Source: Acidobacteriota bacterium (lineage in GTDB: Bacteria; Acidobacteriota; Blastocatellia; Pyrinomonadales; Pyrinomonadaceae). Taken from it: a stretch of DNA of 64,000 bases. Under the pieces are notes generated by a model. The model was not told the DNA's origin. It searched no databases and saw only the letters and a program-made list of their open reading frames with translations. Shown here one piece after another: positions 12,083-18,203 of this stretch. The position numbers and the translations under genes were made by a program. Each line of letters opens with the position of its first letter. Position 1 is the first letter of the stretch. Location: the NCBI GenBank assembly GCA_003222975.1, contig QHXN01000019.1:1-64000 (forward strand), in the 5' to 3' direction.

Positions 12083-12161
12083 TGAATGATGAATGCGGAA
12101 TGATGAATGAAAAGACGCAAGCCGCCTGATATTCATCATTCATCATTCCGCATTCATCACT
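12078..12161. repeat. Inverted repeat, AATGATG heptamer family
   Basis: The left arm (12078-12113) is AATGATG, AATGATG, AATGCGG, AATGATG, AATGA in strict 7-nt register. The right arm (12131-12160) is its near-complement, including the AATGCGG marker word. The left arm contains the stop of the amidohydrolase gene, and the sulfate transporter ATPase stop on the other strand is at 12157-12159, inside the right end. A single arm of the same family is found at 37706-37737. Confidence 0.85.
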
Positions 12162-13437
12162 TCTGTGTGTCGAGTGTGCGGCTGGCGCGCTCGGAGGCGA
12201 GGGCGAAGTTGGGGAGGACGCGGAAGGCCGTCAGGCAGACGGCGACGCGGTCGCCGACCTTGAGCGCCGTCGCGCTCACCTCCGGCTTCGGGCGCGTGAC
12301 GAAGATGGGCACGCCGAGGCTCGTCTCCGGCGTGTTGATGGTGACCTCGTAGAGCGGCGGCTCGCCCGCCGAGGGCAGGCGCGCGACGAGGTCGAGCCTG
12401 ACCGTCAGGCGCTCGTATGCGCCGACGAAGTGCTTCTCCTCGATGACGCCGTTGGTCAGGCGGCGGCAGCCTTCGGGGAGCGCGCCCGTCAGGCTCAGGT
12501 GAACGTCCTCGGGGCGGAAGACCAGCTTCACGGACTGCCCCTCGCGGAAGCGCGCCGACTCCGCGCCCGCCTCAATCGAAGCCGTGCCCAGCTCCACGCG
12601 CCCGCCCGCGGCGACGCCTAAGAGGAGGTTCGCCGCGCCGAGGAACGTCGCCACGTACTCGGTTTCGGGTCGGTTGTAAACCTCTTCGGGCGTGCCCACC
12701 TGTTCGAGGTGTCCGGCGTGCAGCACCGCGATGCGGTCGCCGAGTTCGAGCGCCTCCTCCTGGTCGTGCGTGATGAAGATGGCGGGCACGTTGACCTCCC
12801 TGAGCAGCGCGCGAATCTCGCGGCGCAGGCGCACGCGCGTCTGCGCGTCGAGAGCGCCGAACGGCTCGTCGAAGAGGAGCACCTGCGGCTGGTAGGCGAG
12901 CGTGCGCGCAATCGCCACGCGTTGCTGCTGGCCGCCCGAAAGCTGATGAGGGTACTTCTTGCGGTGCTCTTCGAGGTGGACGAGCTCGAGCAGGCTCTTG
13001 ACCTTCTCTTTGACCTCGCGGCGGCGGCGGCCACGTATGCGCAGGCCGTAGCCGATGTTCTCCTGGACGGTCATGCGCGGGAACAGAGCGTAGGACTGGA
13101 AGATGACGCCGACGCCGCGCTCGCGCGCCGGCAAGTCCGTCACGTCGCGCCCGTGGAGGATGACGCTGCCGGAGTCGGGCTGCTCAAGGCCCGCGATGAT
13201 TCGCAGGATGGTGGTCTTCCCCGACCCGGAAGCGCCCAGGAGCACGAGCGCCTCGCCCACGCCCACGTCGAAGCTCACGTCTTCGAGCACGCGCGTCTTC
13301 TTGAAGCTCTTGCTCAAGGCCCGCACGCTCGCCGCCACCTCGACCTCGGCGGTCTCTTGCGCGCGCGCCGCCCCGTCAGCGCCCGCCGCCGCGCTTTCCA
13401 CGAAGCCCCTGTCGTCCGCGGCCTGTTTCGGCATCAT
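12157..13437 (-). CDS. cysA: Sulfate/thiosulfate ABC transporter ATPase
   Basis: A 426-residue cytoplasmic ATPase. Walker A is GASGSGKT at residues 68-75, the signature is LSGGQQQR, Walker B is VLLFDEP followed by FGALD, and the switch histidine is in FITHD. A C-terminal TOBE-type domain of about 150 residues (FLGAANLLLG to the end) fits the CysA/MalK/PotA subgroup. The N-terminal 35 residues are an alanine-rich extension before the domain. It sits 12 nt downstream of the permease gene and follows a sulfate-binding protein, which supports sulfate as substrate. Molybdate cannot be excluded from the ATPase alone. Confidence 0.85.
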   Translation of the reverse strand: MMPKQAADDRGFVESAAAGADGAARAQETAEVEVAASVRALSKSFKKTRVLEDVSFDVGVGEALVLLGASGSGKTTILRIIAGLEQPDSGSVILHGRDVTDLPARERGVGVIFQSYALFPRMTVQENIGYGLRIRGRRRREVKEKVKSLLELVHLEEHRKKYPHQLSGGQQQRVAIARTLAYQPQVLLFDEPFGALDAQTRVRLRREIRALLREVNVPAIFITHDQEEALELGDRIAVLHAGHLEQVGTPEEVYNRPETEYVATFLGAANLLLGVAAGGRVELGTASIEAGAESARFREGQSVKLVFRPEDVHLSLTGALPEGCRRLTNGVIEEKHFVGAYERLTVRLDLVARLPSAGEPPLYEVTINTPETSLGVPIFVTRPKPEVSATALKVGDRVAVCLTAFRVLPNFALASERASRTLDTQK

Positions 13438-13449
13438 CCCCGTGCAGCC

Positions 13450-14283
13450 TCACTTGACTTCGAGCCAGTCGCGCGCGAAGAAGAGGATGAAAAAGATGAC
13501 GAAGGAGAAGAGAGCCAGCACGATGGCGACGGCGTTGGCGGCCTCAACCTGCCCCTCGTTGAACTTGGAGAAGATGTAGAGCGGCGCGGTCTGCGTGCTC
13601 ATGGCGAGGTTGCCGGAGACGAGGATGGTCGAGCCGAACTCGCCGATGGCGCGCGCGAAAGTCAGCAGAGCGCCCGTCACAATCGCGCCGCGCAAACTGG
13701 GGAGCGTCACGTGCCAGAAGGTCTGCCAGCGCGTCGCGCCGATGGTCGCGGAAGCCTCTTCGAGCGAGCGATCCATCGTCTCGAACACTGACATCAGCAC
13801 GCCGAAGGCGAGCGGGAAGGTGACGAAGATGTTCGCGAGGATGATCGCATAGGGCGTGAACATGATCTGCAAGTCGGGCGGCAGGAATCTTCCGATCAGC
13901 CCGTACTTCCCCCACAGGAGCAGCAGCGCGAAGCCCGCCACGGCGGTCGGGATGGCGGTCGGCAGCGAGATGATGACGATGATGGCAGTGCGCCCCAGGA
14001 ACATGTAGCGCGAGAGCACGTAGGCCGCGAGCAGGCCGAAGAGGACGTTGAAGAGGGTCGCGTAGAAGCTCGTCACCACCGAGAGCTTCAGGGCGAAGAC
14101 GGCTTCGGGCGCGGTCAGCGCCGCCCAGAAGCTCCCCAGCCCCTTGCTCGTCCCGAAGATGAAGATGGAGGCGAGCGGCAGCAGAACCAGCGGCAGCATC
14201 AGAAGGATGACCATGCCGAGGCTGAACGGCTTCACCACGTCGAAGCCGCGCACGTGGCGCATCGTCGCGATTGCTGAACTCAT
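13450..14283 (-). CDS. cysW: Sulfate ABC transporter permease (CysW-like)
   Basis: A 277-residue inner-membrane permease with six predicted membrane segments and the BPD-transport EAA loop (EEASATIGATRWQTFWHVTLP). The start taken is the ATG at 14281-14283, preceded by GAGGTGG; a longer frame would run into the adjacent palindrome. The segment AIGEFGSTILVSGN is typical of CysW/CysT proteins. Canonical sulfate importers have two different permeases (CysT and CysW). Only one is encoded in this cluster, so it either homodimerises or pairs with a product made elsewhere. Confidence 0.85.
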   Translation of the reverse strand: MSSAIATMRHVRGFDVVKPFSLGMVILLMLPLVLLPLASIFIFGTSKGLGSFWAALTAPEAVFALKLSVVTSFYATLFNVLFGLLAAYVLSRYMFLGRTAIIVIISLPTAIPTAVAGFALLLLWGKYGLIGRFLPPDLQIMFTPYAIILANIFVTFPLAFGVLMSVFETMDRSLEEASATIGATRWQTFWHVTLPSLRGAIVTGALLTFARAIGEFGSTILVSGNLAMSTQTAPLYIFSKFNEGQVEAANAVAIVLALFSFVIFFILFFARDWLEVK

Positions 14284-14293
14284 ATTCCACCTC

Positions 14294-14369
14294 GTGAACC
14301 GTAAACCGTAAACCGTGACAAGATAAAACTGTTCTTCACTTGTCACGGTTTACGGTTCACGGTTCACGG
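14294..14369. repeat. Inverted repeat, CCGTAAA heptamer family (copy 1)
   Basis: The arm at 14294-14322 (GTGAACC, GTAAACC, GTAAACC, GTGACAAG) pairs with 14339-14369 over about 29 bp with one mismatch. The loop begins ATAAAA. It lies inside the sulfate operon: the stop of the binding-protein gene (forward 14364-14366) is part of the right arm, and the permease ATG is 11 nt from the left arm. A close relative, including the GACAAGATAAAA junction, is at 41702-41779. Confidence 0.88.
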
Positions 14370-15440
14370 CTTTTTCTTCACTTGATTCCGCCACACGCCG
14401 TCTATCACTTCGGGGTACGCGCGATCCCAGCCGCCGAACAGCTCGACCGTGAAGGGCAGCTCGATGTGCGCCAGGCCGGGGTTCGCTTCGTTGAACTCTT
14501 CGTGCGTCACGGCGCGGAAGTTGTACTTGACGAAGGCCCGCTGCGCCTCGTCGTCCCAGAGATACTGCATGAAGGCGTCAACGAGCGGGCGGTCGTCCGG
14601 CGCGACGTTGCGGTCTATGACCGCCGCCGGGTGCTCGCTGAAGATGGTCGCGCGCGGGACGACGATCTCTACACCTGCGCCTGCCTGCTTCATCTGCAAG
14701 CCTTCGAGTTCGTAGGTGATGAGCGCGTCGCCGTAGCCGGTCTCGAACTGCGTGCGTGCGGCGCGCGCCGAGTCGGGGGTGGAGAAGACGCGGCCCCAGA
14801 CGGACTTTAAAAGTTGCAGGGCGCGCGCCTGGTCAACGCCGCCCGTCTCGGCCTGCGACTTCTTCAGCTCCGAGCCGTAGATGGCGAGTATGCTCCACTG
14901 CGCGCCGCCCGATCCGTCCGGGTCGGGGTGGATGAGCTTGACGCCGGGGCGGCCTAAGTCTGCGAAGTCGCGTATGCCTTTCGGGTTCCCCTTGCGGACG
15001 AGGATGATGAAGGGGGTTTTGTTGACGATGCCCCCGAAGGGCATCGCCTTCCAGTTCGACGTGACCGCGCCCGCCTTCGACAGCCGCTCAACGTCGCGCT
15101 CGATGGAGAAGATGCCGACCTGCGCGCCGACGCCCTGAAGGATTTGGTTCGTGATCGTCTCGGAGCCAGCGTAGGAGGCCGTGAACTTCACGTCCTCGCC
15201 GTGCTCCCGCTTCCACTTCGCCGCGAAGCCGGGCAGGACGCCGTTGTCCATCACCTCCTTCATCACCGAGAAGGCGTAGATGGTGATGTTGCGCTGGCCG
15301 CCCGGACGCGAGCCGGTCTGCGACTTCGGCAGGCATGCGCCCGCCGCCGCCAGCGCCAGCGTCATCAGCACCGCCGCGCCGCGCGCGAGCCTCCTGTCCT
15401 TCGGGTATAGTCTTCCCCGTGCGGCGATTCCCATGTCCAA
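14364..15440 (-). CDS. Sulfate-binding lipoprotein of the ABC importer
   Basis: A 358-residue periplasmic binding protein of the sulfate/thiosulfate Sbp group. A positively charged start and hydrophobic stretch end in a lipobox-like LAAAGAC, so the mature protein is probably lipid-anchored. Characteristic segments are the ITNQILQGVGAQVGIFSIERDVERL region, FIILVRKGNPKGIRDFADL (about residue 158-176), the DPDGSGGAQWSI sulfate-binding loop and GDALITYELEG. It is the first gene of an operon continuing with cysW and cysA. The C-terminal stop is provided by the neighbouring palindrome. A second ATG two codons inside could also be the start. Confidence 0.87.
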   Translation of the reverse strand: MDMGIAARGRLYPKDRRLARGAAVLMTLALAAAGACLPKSQTGSRPGGQRNITIYAFSVMKEVMDNGVLPGFAAKWKREHGEDVKFTASYAGSETITNQILQGVGAQVGIFSIERDVERLSKAGAVTSNWKAMPFGGIVNKTPFIILVRKGNPKGIRDFADLGRPGVKLIHPDPDGSGGAQWSILAIYGSELKKSQAETGGVDQARALQLLKSVWGRVFSTPDSARAARTQFETGYGDALITYELEGLQMKQAGAGVEIVVPRATIFSEHPAAVIDRNVAPDDRPLVDAFMQYLWDDEAQRAFVKYNFRAVTHEEFNEANPGLAHIELPFTVELFGGWDRAYPEVIDGVWRNQVKKKP

Positions 15441-15707
15441 TACTCCCCCGCCCGTCTCCGGCCCCCGGCCTGTCCAGAACTAAAATTTTCCGGCTTCTAT
15501 AGCACACTTCGGCCCATTCGGGAAGCTTTCCCGCACGCGTCGGGCGGTTGCGGACAACGCCCGGCGCGCAAACACAAGCCGGTGTCCACGTGCCGCGCGC
15601 TTCACGGCGGCTCGCGTTTTGTGCGATGCTATCCGCCGCCGGACTCTTCGGGGCCGCGACGCCAGCGGGCCAGCCGGACGAATCAAAATTTTCGGAGACT
15701 GAAAAGA

Positions 15708-16190
15708 ATGCGAAAGCTTTTCTTAGCGGCAGTGGCCGCCGCGTGCGTTGCCGCCGCCGTCCTGCTCGCCGCGTGCAAGGCGACGGACACGGCGGGGAAC
15801 CTGCGCGCCGGCTCGACCGCCCTCAACTCGCCCGCGCAGCCCGTGCAGGCCGCGAACCCGGCGGACGCCGCGCCGCGCATCACGGTCGCCGAGCTGCAAC
15901 AGAAGCTTGAGAAGGGTGGGGTAGTCATCTACGACACGCGCGCGAAGTCCGCTTACGACCAGGAGCACATCAAGGGCGCGCTCTCGATGCCGACGGGCGA
16001 AGTCGCCAACCGCACGGGCGAGCTGCCGAAGGACAAGCTGATCGTCTTCTACTGCACTTGACCGAGCGAGCACACGAGCGCCGGTGCGGTGCTCACACTC
16101 AAGTCGAAGGGCATGGAGAACGCCGCCGCGCTGCTCGGCGGCATGAACGCTTGGAAGAGCCAGGGGCTGCCGATGGAAAGCACGAAGTAG
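15708..16190 (+). CDS. Rhodanese-like lipoprotein with probable selenocysteine at an in-frame TGA
   Basis: The frame runs from ATG 15708 to TAG 16188-16190 (160 residues) if TGA at 16059-16061 is read as residue 118. The N-terminus is a lipoprotein signal (MRKLFLAAVAAAC then LLAAC). The rhodanese domain begins near residue 62 (ITVAELQQKLEKGGVVIYDTR, DQEHIKGALSMP) and reaches the active-site loop VFYCT-U-PSEHTSAG. After the TGA, coding continues with ALLGGMNAWKSQGLP, the usual rhodanese end. In homologues of this type I recall a CxCP motif, so the TGA replaces the second cysteine. A hairpin fitting a bacterial SECIS follows immediately. It would be a membrane-attached sulfur- or selenium-transfer enzyme. 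Without decoding, a 118-residue protein lacking the domain end would result. Confidence 0.8.
16062..16100 (+). promoter_or_regulatory. bSECIS-like hairpin for selenocysteine insertion
   Basis: Directly after TGA 16059-16061, GAGCAC at 16068-16073 pairs with GTGCTC at 16089-16094. An inner CGC (16079-16081) pairs with GCG (16086-16088) around the four-base loop CGGT, with a 5-nt bulge on the 5' side. GAG 16064-16066 can also pair with CTC 16098-16100. The apical loop starts 20 nt after the TGA and has G at its second position, within the commonly quoted 16-37 nt range for bacterial SECIS elements. Confidence 0.7.
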
Positions 16191-16300
16191 GAGACGGGGA
16201 GAGAGGGGGACGGAGAGACGGGGTGAAGCGGAGGCCGGGCGCGGAGGGTCATTACCATCCTCGCTCCGTCTCCCCGTCACCCCGTCTCCCTTTCTCCCCG
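16191..16300. repeat. Imperfect inverted repeat, GGGGAGAC family
   Basis: The left arm (about 16191-16242) is a series of 8-nt words such as GGAGACGG, GGAGAGAG and AGAGACGG. The right arm (about 16265-16300) is a diverged complement (CCGTCTCC, CCGTCACC). It begins on the base after the TAG stop of the rhodanese gene, so it is probably its terminator. Confidence 0.7.
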
Positions 16301-16421: not shown

Positions 16422-18203
16422 TTGCTTCGAGGACTCTTTCGCACCAAAAGCCTTGACGACATACTCGCCGTCGCGGGCGGCCCGCAGTTCTCTCTAAAGC
16501 GCACGCTCGGCGCGTTCAACGTCACGCTCCTTGGCATCGGCGCGATCATCGGCGCAGGGATTTTCGCGACCGTCGGCACGGCGGCCGCGGGCGACGCCCA
16601 GCGGCCCGGCGCGGGGCCTTCGCTGATGCTCTCGTTCGTCATCACGGCGGTCGTCTGCGGCTTCACGGCCCTGTGCTACGCGGAGTTCGCCTCGATGGTT
16701 CCCATCTCAGGCTCCGCCTACACCTATTCCTACTCGACGCTCGGCGAGCTGGTCGCCTGGATCATCGGCTGGGACTTAATCATCGAGTACGCCGTCGGCA
16801 ACATCGCCGTCGCCATCAGTTGGGCCAACTACTTCCGCACGCTGATGGGCAACCTCGGCGTGCACATCCCCGCCTGGCTCGCGACCGACTACCGCACGGC
16901 CCTGAGCCTGCGCGCCGCGAACCCCGCGGGCTTCGCCGAACAGTTCGGCGGAGCGCCGCACCTCTTCGGCTACCCTATCATCTTCAACCTGCTTGCCCTG
17001 GGCATCGTCGCGCTCATCACCGTCGTCCTCGTCTGGGGCATCAAGGAGTCGGCGGAGTTCAACGCCGGGATGGTTCTGATCAAGATCGCGGTGCTTCTGT
17101 TCTTCATCGGCATCTCGCTCTACTACGTCTCGCCGAAGCAGATGACCGCGAACTGGCACCCGTTCCAGCCGAACGGCTGGCACGGCACGTTCACCGGCGC
17201 GGCCCTCGTCTTCTTCGCCTATATCGGATTCGACGCCGTCAGCACGGTGGCCGAAGAGTGCAAGAACCCGGCGCGCGACCTACCCATCGGCATCATCGCG
17301 TCGCTCATCGTCTGCACCGTACTCTACGTCGTCGTCGGCGCGGTCTTCGCGGGGCTGATCCCTTACAGCGAGCTTGTGACGAAACTGACGACCGAGCAGG
17401 CCGAGCCTCTGACGATGGCGCTCGACCGCGTCGCGCCCGCAGGCACGACGTGGCCCTCGACTATCGTCGCCTTCGGCTCGGTCATCGCGCACACCGCCGT
17501 GCTTCTGGTCTTCCAACTCGGACAGCCGCGCATCTTCTTCTCGATGGCGCGCGACGGCCTTCTGCCGTCGAAGTTCGCGAGCGTCCACCCGCGCTTTAAG
17601 ACGCCGCACGTGACGACGATACTCACCGGCGTCTTCGTCGGCGTGTTTGCCGCCTTCGCCAGCATTGACGAGGTGATTGACCTGACGAACATCGGGACTC
17701 TCTTCGCCTTCATCCTCGTCTGCGCCGGCATCATCGTGCTGCGCTACAAAGACCCGGCGCGCGTGCGCCCGTTCCGCGTACCCTTAGGGCCGTGGCTCTT
17801 CCCCGTGCTCGGCGTCGTGTCCTGCTTCTTCCTGATGTTCTACCTGCCGCCCGCCTCCTGGTGGCGCTTCATCGGCTGGCTCATGCTCGGCTTCTCGATC
17901 TACCTCTCCTACGGCTACACGCGCAGCGCCGTCGGCGCGAAGCTCGGTCGCCCGACGCGCGCGCCCGCGCCGCTGAAGGTCGCCGCGCTCGGCTTCCTCC
18001 TGGTCGCAATCGGCCTCTTCACCATCCCGCACGACCTCGGCCCGACGGCGCTCGTCCAGGCGGCGACGGACGCGGCAGCCGACCGGCACGAGCGCGCGCT
18101 CTACGGCCTCATCATCATCGTCATCGGCCTCGTCATGGGCATCGCCGGCGCGTCAATCGGAGCGCCGCGCGACGCGGGCGGCGCGGCGGCGAACGCGGGC
18201 TGA
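16422..18203 (+). CDS. APC-family amino acid permease (cationic amino acid transporter type)
   Basis: A 593-residue inner-membrane transporter with twelve or more hydrophobic segments. A TTG start at 16422 is chosen because GGAGGAAG ends 3 nt upstream and the product then begins LFRTKSLDDILA, a typical N-terminus for the CAT/YfnA group. The first helix has the substrate motif GIGAIIGAGIFATVG, followed by YAEFASMVPISGSAYTYSY. The last part (from about residue 540) has two further segments and a glycine/alanine-rich tail. The longer frame from 16311 lacks a ribosome site. It should import an amino acid by cation symport; specificity cannot be read. Confidence 0.87.
   Translation: MLRGLFRTKSLDDILAVAGGPQFSLKRTLGAFNVTLLGIGAIIGAGIFATVGTAAAGDAQRPGAGPSLMLSFVITAVVCGFTALCYAEFASMVPISGSAYTYSYSTLGELVAWIIGWDLIIEYAVGNIAVAISWANYFRTLMGNLGVHIPAWLATDYRTALSLRAANPAGFAEQFGGAPHLFGYPIIFNLLALGIVALITVVLVWGIKESAEFNAGMVLIKIAVLLFFIGISLYYVSPKQMTANWHPFQPNGWHGTFTGAALVFFAYIGFDAVSTVAEECKNPARDLPIGIIASLIVCTVLYVVVGAVFAGLIPYSELVTKLTTEQAEPLTMALDRVAPAGTTWPSTIVAFGSVIAHTAVLLVFQLGQPRIFFSMARDGLLPSKFASVHPRFKTPHVTTILTGVFVGVFAAFASIDEVIDLTNIGTLFAFILVCAGIIVLRYKDPARVRPFRVPLGPWLFPVLGVVSCFFLMFYLPPASWWRFIGWLMLGFSIYLSYGYTRSAVGAKLGRPTRAPAPLKVAALGFLLVAIGLFTIPHDLGPTALVQAATDAAADRHERALYGLIIIVIGLVMGIAGASIGAPRDAGGAAANAG

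Follow-up and report, generated by a model that had tools for sequence, protein, structure and literature searches.

Rhodaneses with selenocysteine (Sec) in a CxU motif are an already described class of predicted selenoproteins. The CxU motif is form 2 of COG0607 in a 2022 review, which credits it to Zhang & Gladyshev 2005 (PMC9312934), and the family NF041203 is rhodanese form 3, with motif CxU, in a 2026 review (PMC13188914). The gene described here occupies positions 15708-16190 (+) of a 64,000-nucleotide stretch of DNA (the window; C101:1-64000) from the 4.9 Mb genome, in 153 contigs, of an acidobacterium of Pyrinomonadaceae type (the host). Its best NCBIfam match is NF041203 (rhodanese_LYCAU, "rhodanese-related (seleno)protein"). 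Like that family, its product has C-x-U at the same rhodanese loop (C116-T-U118) and a Sec/Cys swap at the same residue, and it aligns with profile positions 13-125 of 126. The score of 89.7 bits is below the cut-off of 115, and the protein was not assigned to the NF041203 equivalog. Other Pyrinomonadaceae members of the lipoprotein branch also miss the cut-off (L022, 81.9 bits; L033, 83.5 bits); among the members scored, only L079 from Pyrinomonas passes (125.2 bits). As a CxU rhodanese selenoprotein, the protein belongs to a kind predicted earlier, close to the curated family and outside its rule. Judging by the NF041203 score, annotation rules now in use would probably end such proteins at the UGA. 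No description of a CxU rhodanese selenoprotein in Pyrinomonadaceae or Blastocatellia was found in the literature examined.

The earlier note on this DNA had read a rhodanese frame interrupted only by TGA 16059-16061 and followed by 42 clean codons, and our analysis bears this out. The TGA is the sole internal stop in the frame, which ends 42 codons later at TAG 16188-16190. A probable ribosome-binding site, GGAGA (15695-15699, +), can be read 8 nt 5' of the ATG at 15708. With the TGA read through as residue 118, the translation is 160 aa long and matches Pfam Rhodanese (PF00581) at 60.3 bits (cut-off 22.2). The upstream half alone matches profile positions 1-65 at 34.4 bits, and the downstream half alone matches positions 72-101 at 14.8 bits, which by itself is under the cut-off. 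AlphaFold2, run on an alignment of the window protein with Cys homologues, likewise predicts a rhodanese fold, with pLDDT 94-98 over the domain. The active-site motif is YC116-T-U118-P-S-E121-H-T-S124. Positions 15708-15776 (+) encode a predicted lipoprotein signal peptide, modelled by AlphaFold as a helix at residues 3-25; it is a hydrophobic N-terminus ending in a lipobox (L-A-A-C23), as in bacterial lipoproteins, and lipidation is predicted. A lipobox similar to LLAAC23 is common to most of the homologues. An Ala-, Pro- and Asn-rich linker of low complexity connects the lipobox to the rhodanese domain.

Conservation of an in-frame UGA at one position, with Cys replacing it in homologues, is the usual mark of a selenoprotein, and this is the pattern found here. 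Homologues were sought in 60 relatives, and their DNA was used to read the codon aligned with the TGA. Among 52 family homologues, this codon is TGA in 48, TGC in three and TGT in one; because one of the TGC matches (L074) is a more distant rhodanese, the close-family Cys count is three to four. Two further matches, with GCC and AGT at this codon, are other rhodaneses and were left outside the family count. The 48 TGA genes are spread over 40 genomes and many genera, although as related sequences they overstate the number of independent events. Stop codons other than TGA were absent at position 118 among the homologues from the 60 relatives. Cys stands at this position in all 70 further homologues (Acidobacteriota, Verrucomicrobiota, Chloroflexota, Pseudomonadota, and others) from a scan that covered each species with one genome and yields Cys forms only, because its pattern demands a Cys codon; Sec forms were scored within the searched relatives. 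The earlier proposal that the TGA stands at the second cysteine of CxCP-type rhodaneses agrees with both sets of homologues.

Across 40 aligned homologues, D76, R78, P107, C116, residue 118 (C or U), E121, S124, and G145 are invariant, and L131 and G135 are nearly so. All homologues have Cys116, and residue 118 alternates between U and C. Pyrinomonas methylaliphatogenes has a Cys form of the subfamily alongside TGA paralogues. In a tree from 114 alignment columns, Sec and Cys forms are interspersed, with eight changes, of which at least three are forced by well-supported branches; the deep branches are weak. Downstream of the hairpin described below, mismatches at codon positions 1, 2, and 3 are 0.33, 0.29, and 0.62, and this third-position excess indicates protein-level constraint on the codons that follow the TGA, as in translated sequence.

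Bacterial SECIS (bSECIS) elements are recognized as hairpins directly 3' of the UGA with a G among the first loop positions, and the window has such a hairpin at 16076-16094 (+). Its stem of seven pairs, GAGCGCC/GGUGCUC, joins positions +15 to +21 after the UGA with +27 to +33, and the apical loop GGUGC (16083-16087) lies 22-26 nt past the UGA. The fold has a predicted energy of -13.8 kcal/mol, and an equally stable one arose in 0.05% of synonymous randomisations. When the homologues were folded one by one without constraints, the hairpins were scattered; the common stem emerged only by codon-anchored comparison, in which the 48 Sec genes were aligned on the TGA. Codon 6 after the TGA is Ser AGC in 41 of the 48. 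Codon 7 is GCC in 47 of 48 Sec forms (all 47 alanines) against 32 of 52 Cys forms (Fisher p 3e-6). Codon 8, which encodes Gly, Arg, or Ser, is NGT in 47 of 48, with T in 4 of 52 Cys forms (p 1e-22), and codon 9 is NNG in 48 of 48, with G in 22 of 52 Cys forms (p 9e-12). Elsewhere the same Sec genes prefer GCG, GGC, and CGC, unlike these frozen codons.

The conserved pairs are C21-G27, C20-G28, G19-Y29, C18-G30, and G17-C31, closing a 5-nt loop N-G-U-N-N at +22 to +26; loop variants are CGUGC (20 genes), GGUGC (13), and GGUCU (9), the rest being minor. Compensatory double changes occur at pairs 18-30 and 17-31, with C-G replaced by U-A in three genes and G-C by C-G in three. Stem pairs one to four are all complete in 43 of 48 Sec genes, compared with 8.8 expected by synonymous randomisation (maximum 17 in 1,000 trials) and with 14 of 52 Cys genes that encode the same Ser-Ala. 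A signature pattern for the element, TGANNNNNNGARNNNNNNAGYGCCNGTNNG, has three sites in the 4.9 Mb host genome, all in Sec-rhodaneses, and the reversed control pattern had zero matches in that genome. A bSECIS element at 16076-16094 is strongly supported by these comparisons. The earlier note had drawn another hairpin in this place (16068-16094, +; -13.9 kcal/mol), pairing GAGCAC at +7 to +12 with GTGCTC at +28 to +33 around an inner CGC/GCG and a CGGT loop. That stem is present as written, but its loop starts at +21 instead of +20 and the stem is unconserved. The two folds compete, since they share a 3' arm and differ in the 5' arm. We rejected the earlier-drawn hairpin as the SECIS and judge it incidental, since it can fold here and yet its six outer pairs are complete in one of 48 sequences; the bSECIS-type folding that had been proposed as a check came out in favour of a different stem.

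Insertion of Sec in bacteria requires SelA, SelB, SelD, and tRNA-Sec, and all four are encoded in the host genome. Matches were 512 bits for selA, 368 bits for selB, 355 bits for selD, and 73 bits for tRNA-Sec, to which ARAGORN assigns the anticodon TCA. All four sit on other contigs, consistent with the earlier observation that the window carries no sel gene, and the genome-wide check that had been suggested found the complete set. Among the 60 relatives, selA is over cut-off in 59. The exception is G023, in which tRNA-Sec over cut-off was not found and a TGA rhodanese was absent among the matches listed. The host SelD (C33:75199-76122, L018) is itself a candidate selenoprotein with an in-frame TGA in the motif C-A-G-U. 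SelD proteins that contain Sec are a known situation.

Taken from a single strain, the TGA would look like a nonsense mutation or a sequencing error in a pseudogene that had freshly lost its C-terminus. An open frame alone says little against this, because 42 open codons are unsurprising at 67% GC (P ~0.37), where frames are often open; conservation carries the proof. The identical TGA in 48 homologues from 40 genomes, coding constraint on both sides of it, and the frozen SECIS codons contradict this reading and make it exceedingly improbable. A conserved TGA might also be a genuine stop, with the downstream part translated separately or never, as in a regulated, for example selenium-responsive, truncation. 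A UGA that carries a SECIS terminates under selenium shortage, so a 117-residue product may occur at times. As the main role of the codon, however, termination is very unlikely: the 42 downstream residues, S124, L131, G135, and G145 among them, contribute a helix and strands to the rhodanese core, and the Cys homologues read straight through.

UGA is reassigned in some bacteria, and Trp or Cys could in principle be placed at residue 118 through an altered code or by a suppressor tRNA. Cys from a misacylated tRNA-Sec would be compatible with the sequence. Homologues substitute Cys rather than Trp, and the canonical tRNA-Sec(UCA) is present with SelA, SelB, and SelD, so decoding as another residue also has a very small probability in our judgement. 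The candidate selenoprotein put forward in the earlier note, a rhodanese lipoprotein, is thus supported by the conserved TGA/Cys exchange, the SECIS, and the host machinery. We consider it highly probable, on comparative evidence rather than protein chemistry, that UGA118 encodes Sec. SelB with tRNA-Sec(UCA) would decode it, directed by the hairpin whose N-G-U-N-N loop begins 22 nt past the UGA.

Besides this gene, the host genome carries at least three other candidates for Sec-rhodaneses, one on C105 and a tandem pair on C26. The C105 gene (17760-18113, -; L051) has a CSU motif, a long Lys-, Thr-, and Pro-rich tail at the C-terminus, and the same SECIS pattern. On C26 (L052; TGA at about 62.9-63.2 kb, -), a YC[AS]xPT-U-HAS form is in tandem with a CTU form, and similar genes are seen in L190 and L192. 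This second form reads C-A-S-P-T-U-H-A-S, with Sec five residues past the Cys, and is similar to the UxxS form that the reviews list. Sec is also predicted in the motif LFC[TA]UPNE in the C-terminal rhodanese of proteins of about 330 aa from Blastocatellia relatives (L194, L195, L196). Cys counterparts of these proteins occur in Terriglobia (L113-L156 and others). In the Sec and the Cys proteins alike, the N-termini look by eye like DedA-type membrane domains. A further Sec/Cys pair is CAU-HYEHSS in L187 (G004 C184) and CAC-HYEHSS in L053 (C22) of the host.

Upstream of the Sec-rhodanese gene, a divergent sulfate-type ABC transporter operon occupies 12157-15440 (-), with genes for a substrate-binding protein (14364-15440), a permease (13450-14346), and an ATPase (12157-13437). 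The operon matches TIGR00971 at 157.4 bits (cut-off 155.5); the best models for the permease and ATPase are sulfate, molybdate, and aminoethylphosphonate transporters, all under cut-off. The operon has a single permease gene in place of the expected two, CysT and CysW. The same arrangement and order is found in G002 and G003. Directly downstream is an APC-type amino-acid permease gene (16422-18203, +; PF13520, 201.6 bits), an adjacency kept in G001-G004 and G027. The sulfate-type transporter fits a sulfur theme, but it adjoins the Sec-rhodanese in this genus only; for the amino-acid permease, the adjacency extends to a few more genera. Because neighbours differ between genera, gene context says little on function. 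Just 3' of the gene (16192-16300), a purine-rich sequence, gagacggggagagaggggga, and a near inverted copy, tctccccgtcaccccgtctccctttctcccc, are possibly a terminator or repeat. Farther along the window is a cobalamin riboswitch (RF00174, 41772-41982, -; 65.7 bits).

The rhodanese fold suggests sulfur chemistry, and the lipobox suggests a protein lipidated on Cys23, whose domain would be held at the periplasmic face of the membrane. Foldseek gave 3nhv, 3tp9, and 3fnj as the nearest PDB structures. Compared with 3tp9 and canonical rhodaneses, the active-site loop has two extra residues; its length equals that of the loop in BH2092 (3nhv). In the profile alignment with 3tp9 and 3nhv, C116 falls on the catalytic Cys. 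Cys116, at the rhodanese persulfide position, could accept sulfane sulfur or make a mixed disulfide; Sec118 would then attack the sulfur bound to Cys116, releasing sulfide or a thiol and leaving a Cys-Sec selenenylsulfide, which a postulated thioredoxin-like reductant of the envelope would reopen. The protein would thus be a fast reductase of persulfides/polysulfides or of disulfides, not a plain cyanide rhodanese. This scheme, with Cys116 as carrier and Sec118 as resolving residue, is the most economical and most likely reaction, and we give it about an even chance.

In the ungapped phmmer alignment with 6mxv, it is U118 that falls on the catalytic Cys, and because the two alignments disagree, the roles of C116 and U118 could be swapped. 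In the same selenoprotein, Sec118 might be the nucleophile that carries sulfur or selenium, with C116 resolving, in a sulfurtransferase or in selenium/thiosulfate handling. In three genomes of the genus a divergent sulfate-type transporter lies beside the gene, which would suit such a role. The 3tp9/3nhv alignment and the invariance of C116, while residue 118 alternates between U and C, speak against it; we regard this assignment of roles as possible, with a probability well short of even. A broader proposal is that the envelope-anchored Sec-rhodanese branch, multiplied within single Pyrinomonadaceae genomes, is a selenium-dependent persulfide/disulfide reductase outside the cytoplasm. We advance it tentatively, as rather doubtful in its full breadth. 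No experimental test of Sec in extracytoplasmic sulfur chemistry of this sort was found in the literature examined.

Acidobacteriota are a large soil phylum whose selenoproteins are seldom treated in the literature examined, and this gene adds a clear, well-controlled case to their selenoproteome. Comparison of the 48 Sec genes with the 52 Cys genes offers a clean natural experiment on the mRNA positions required by acidobacterial SelB. In several genomes Sec and Cys paralogues occur together, which allows comparison of what selenium adds to a rhodanese.

Other described rhodanese selenoproteins (UxxS, UxxG, and TsoB, UxxxxU, NF045694) share the rhodanese fold and have Sec within the active-site loop or close to it, but their Sec position differs. 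TsoB is also a rhodanese/DsbD-like fusion, and the window protein scores 27.9 bits against its cut-off of 805. BH2092 (3nhv), the C-terminal domain of 3tp9, and GlpE (1gmx) share the fold, by Foldseek or profile search, and are without Sec. The Cys CxCP rhodaneses of Terriglobia and others have the same loop, YC[STA]CPxE[HAQ][TS]S, at 30-50% identity; they differ in having Cys for Sec, in lacking the SECIS signature, and often in the N-terminal domain, many of them ending longer proteins with DedA-like membrane N-termini. Unlike NF041203, to which it is nearest, the window protein is a predicted lipoprotein with a low-complexity linker. What is new here is the lipoprotein form, its prevalence in Pyrinomonadaceae, the presence of four candidate Sec-rhodanese genes in one genome, and a very regular SECIS.
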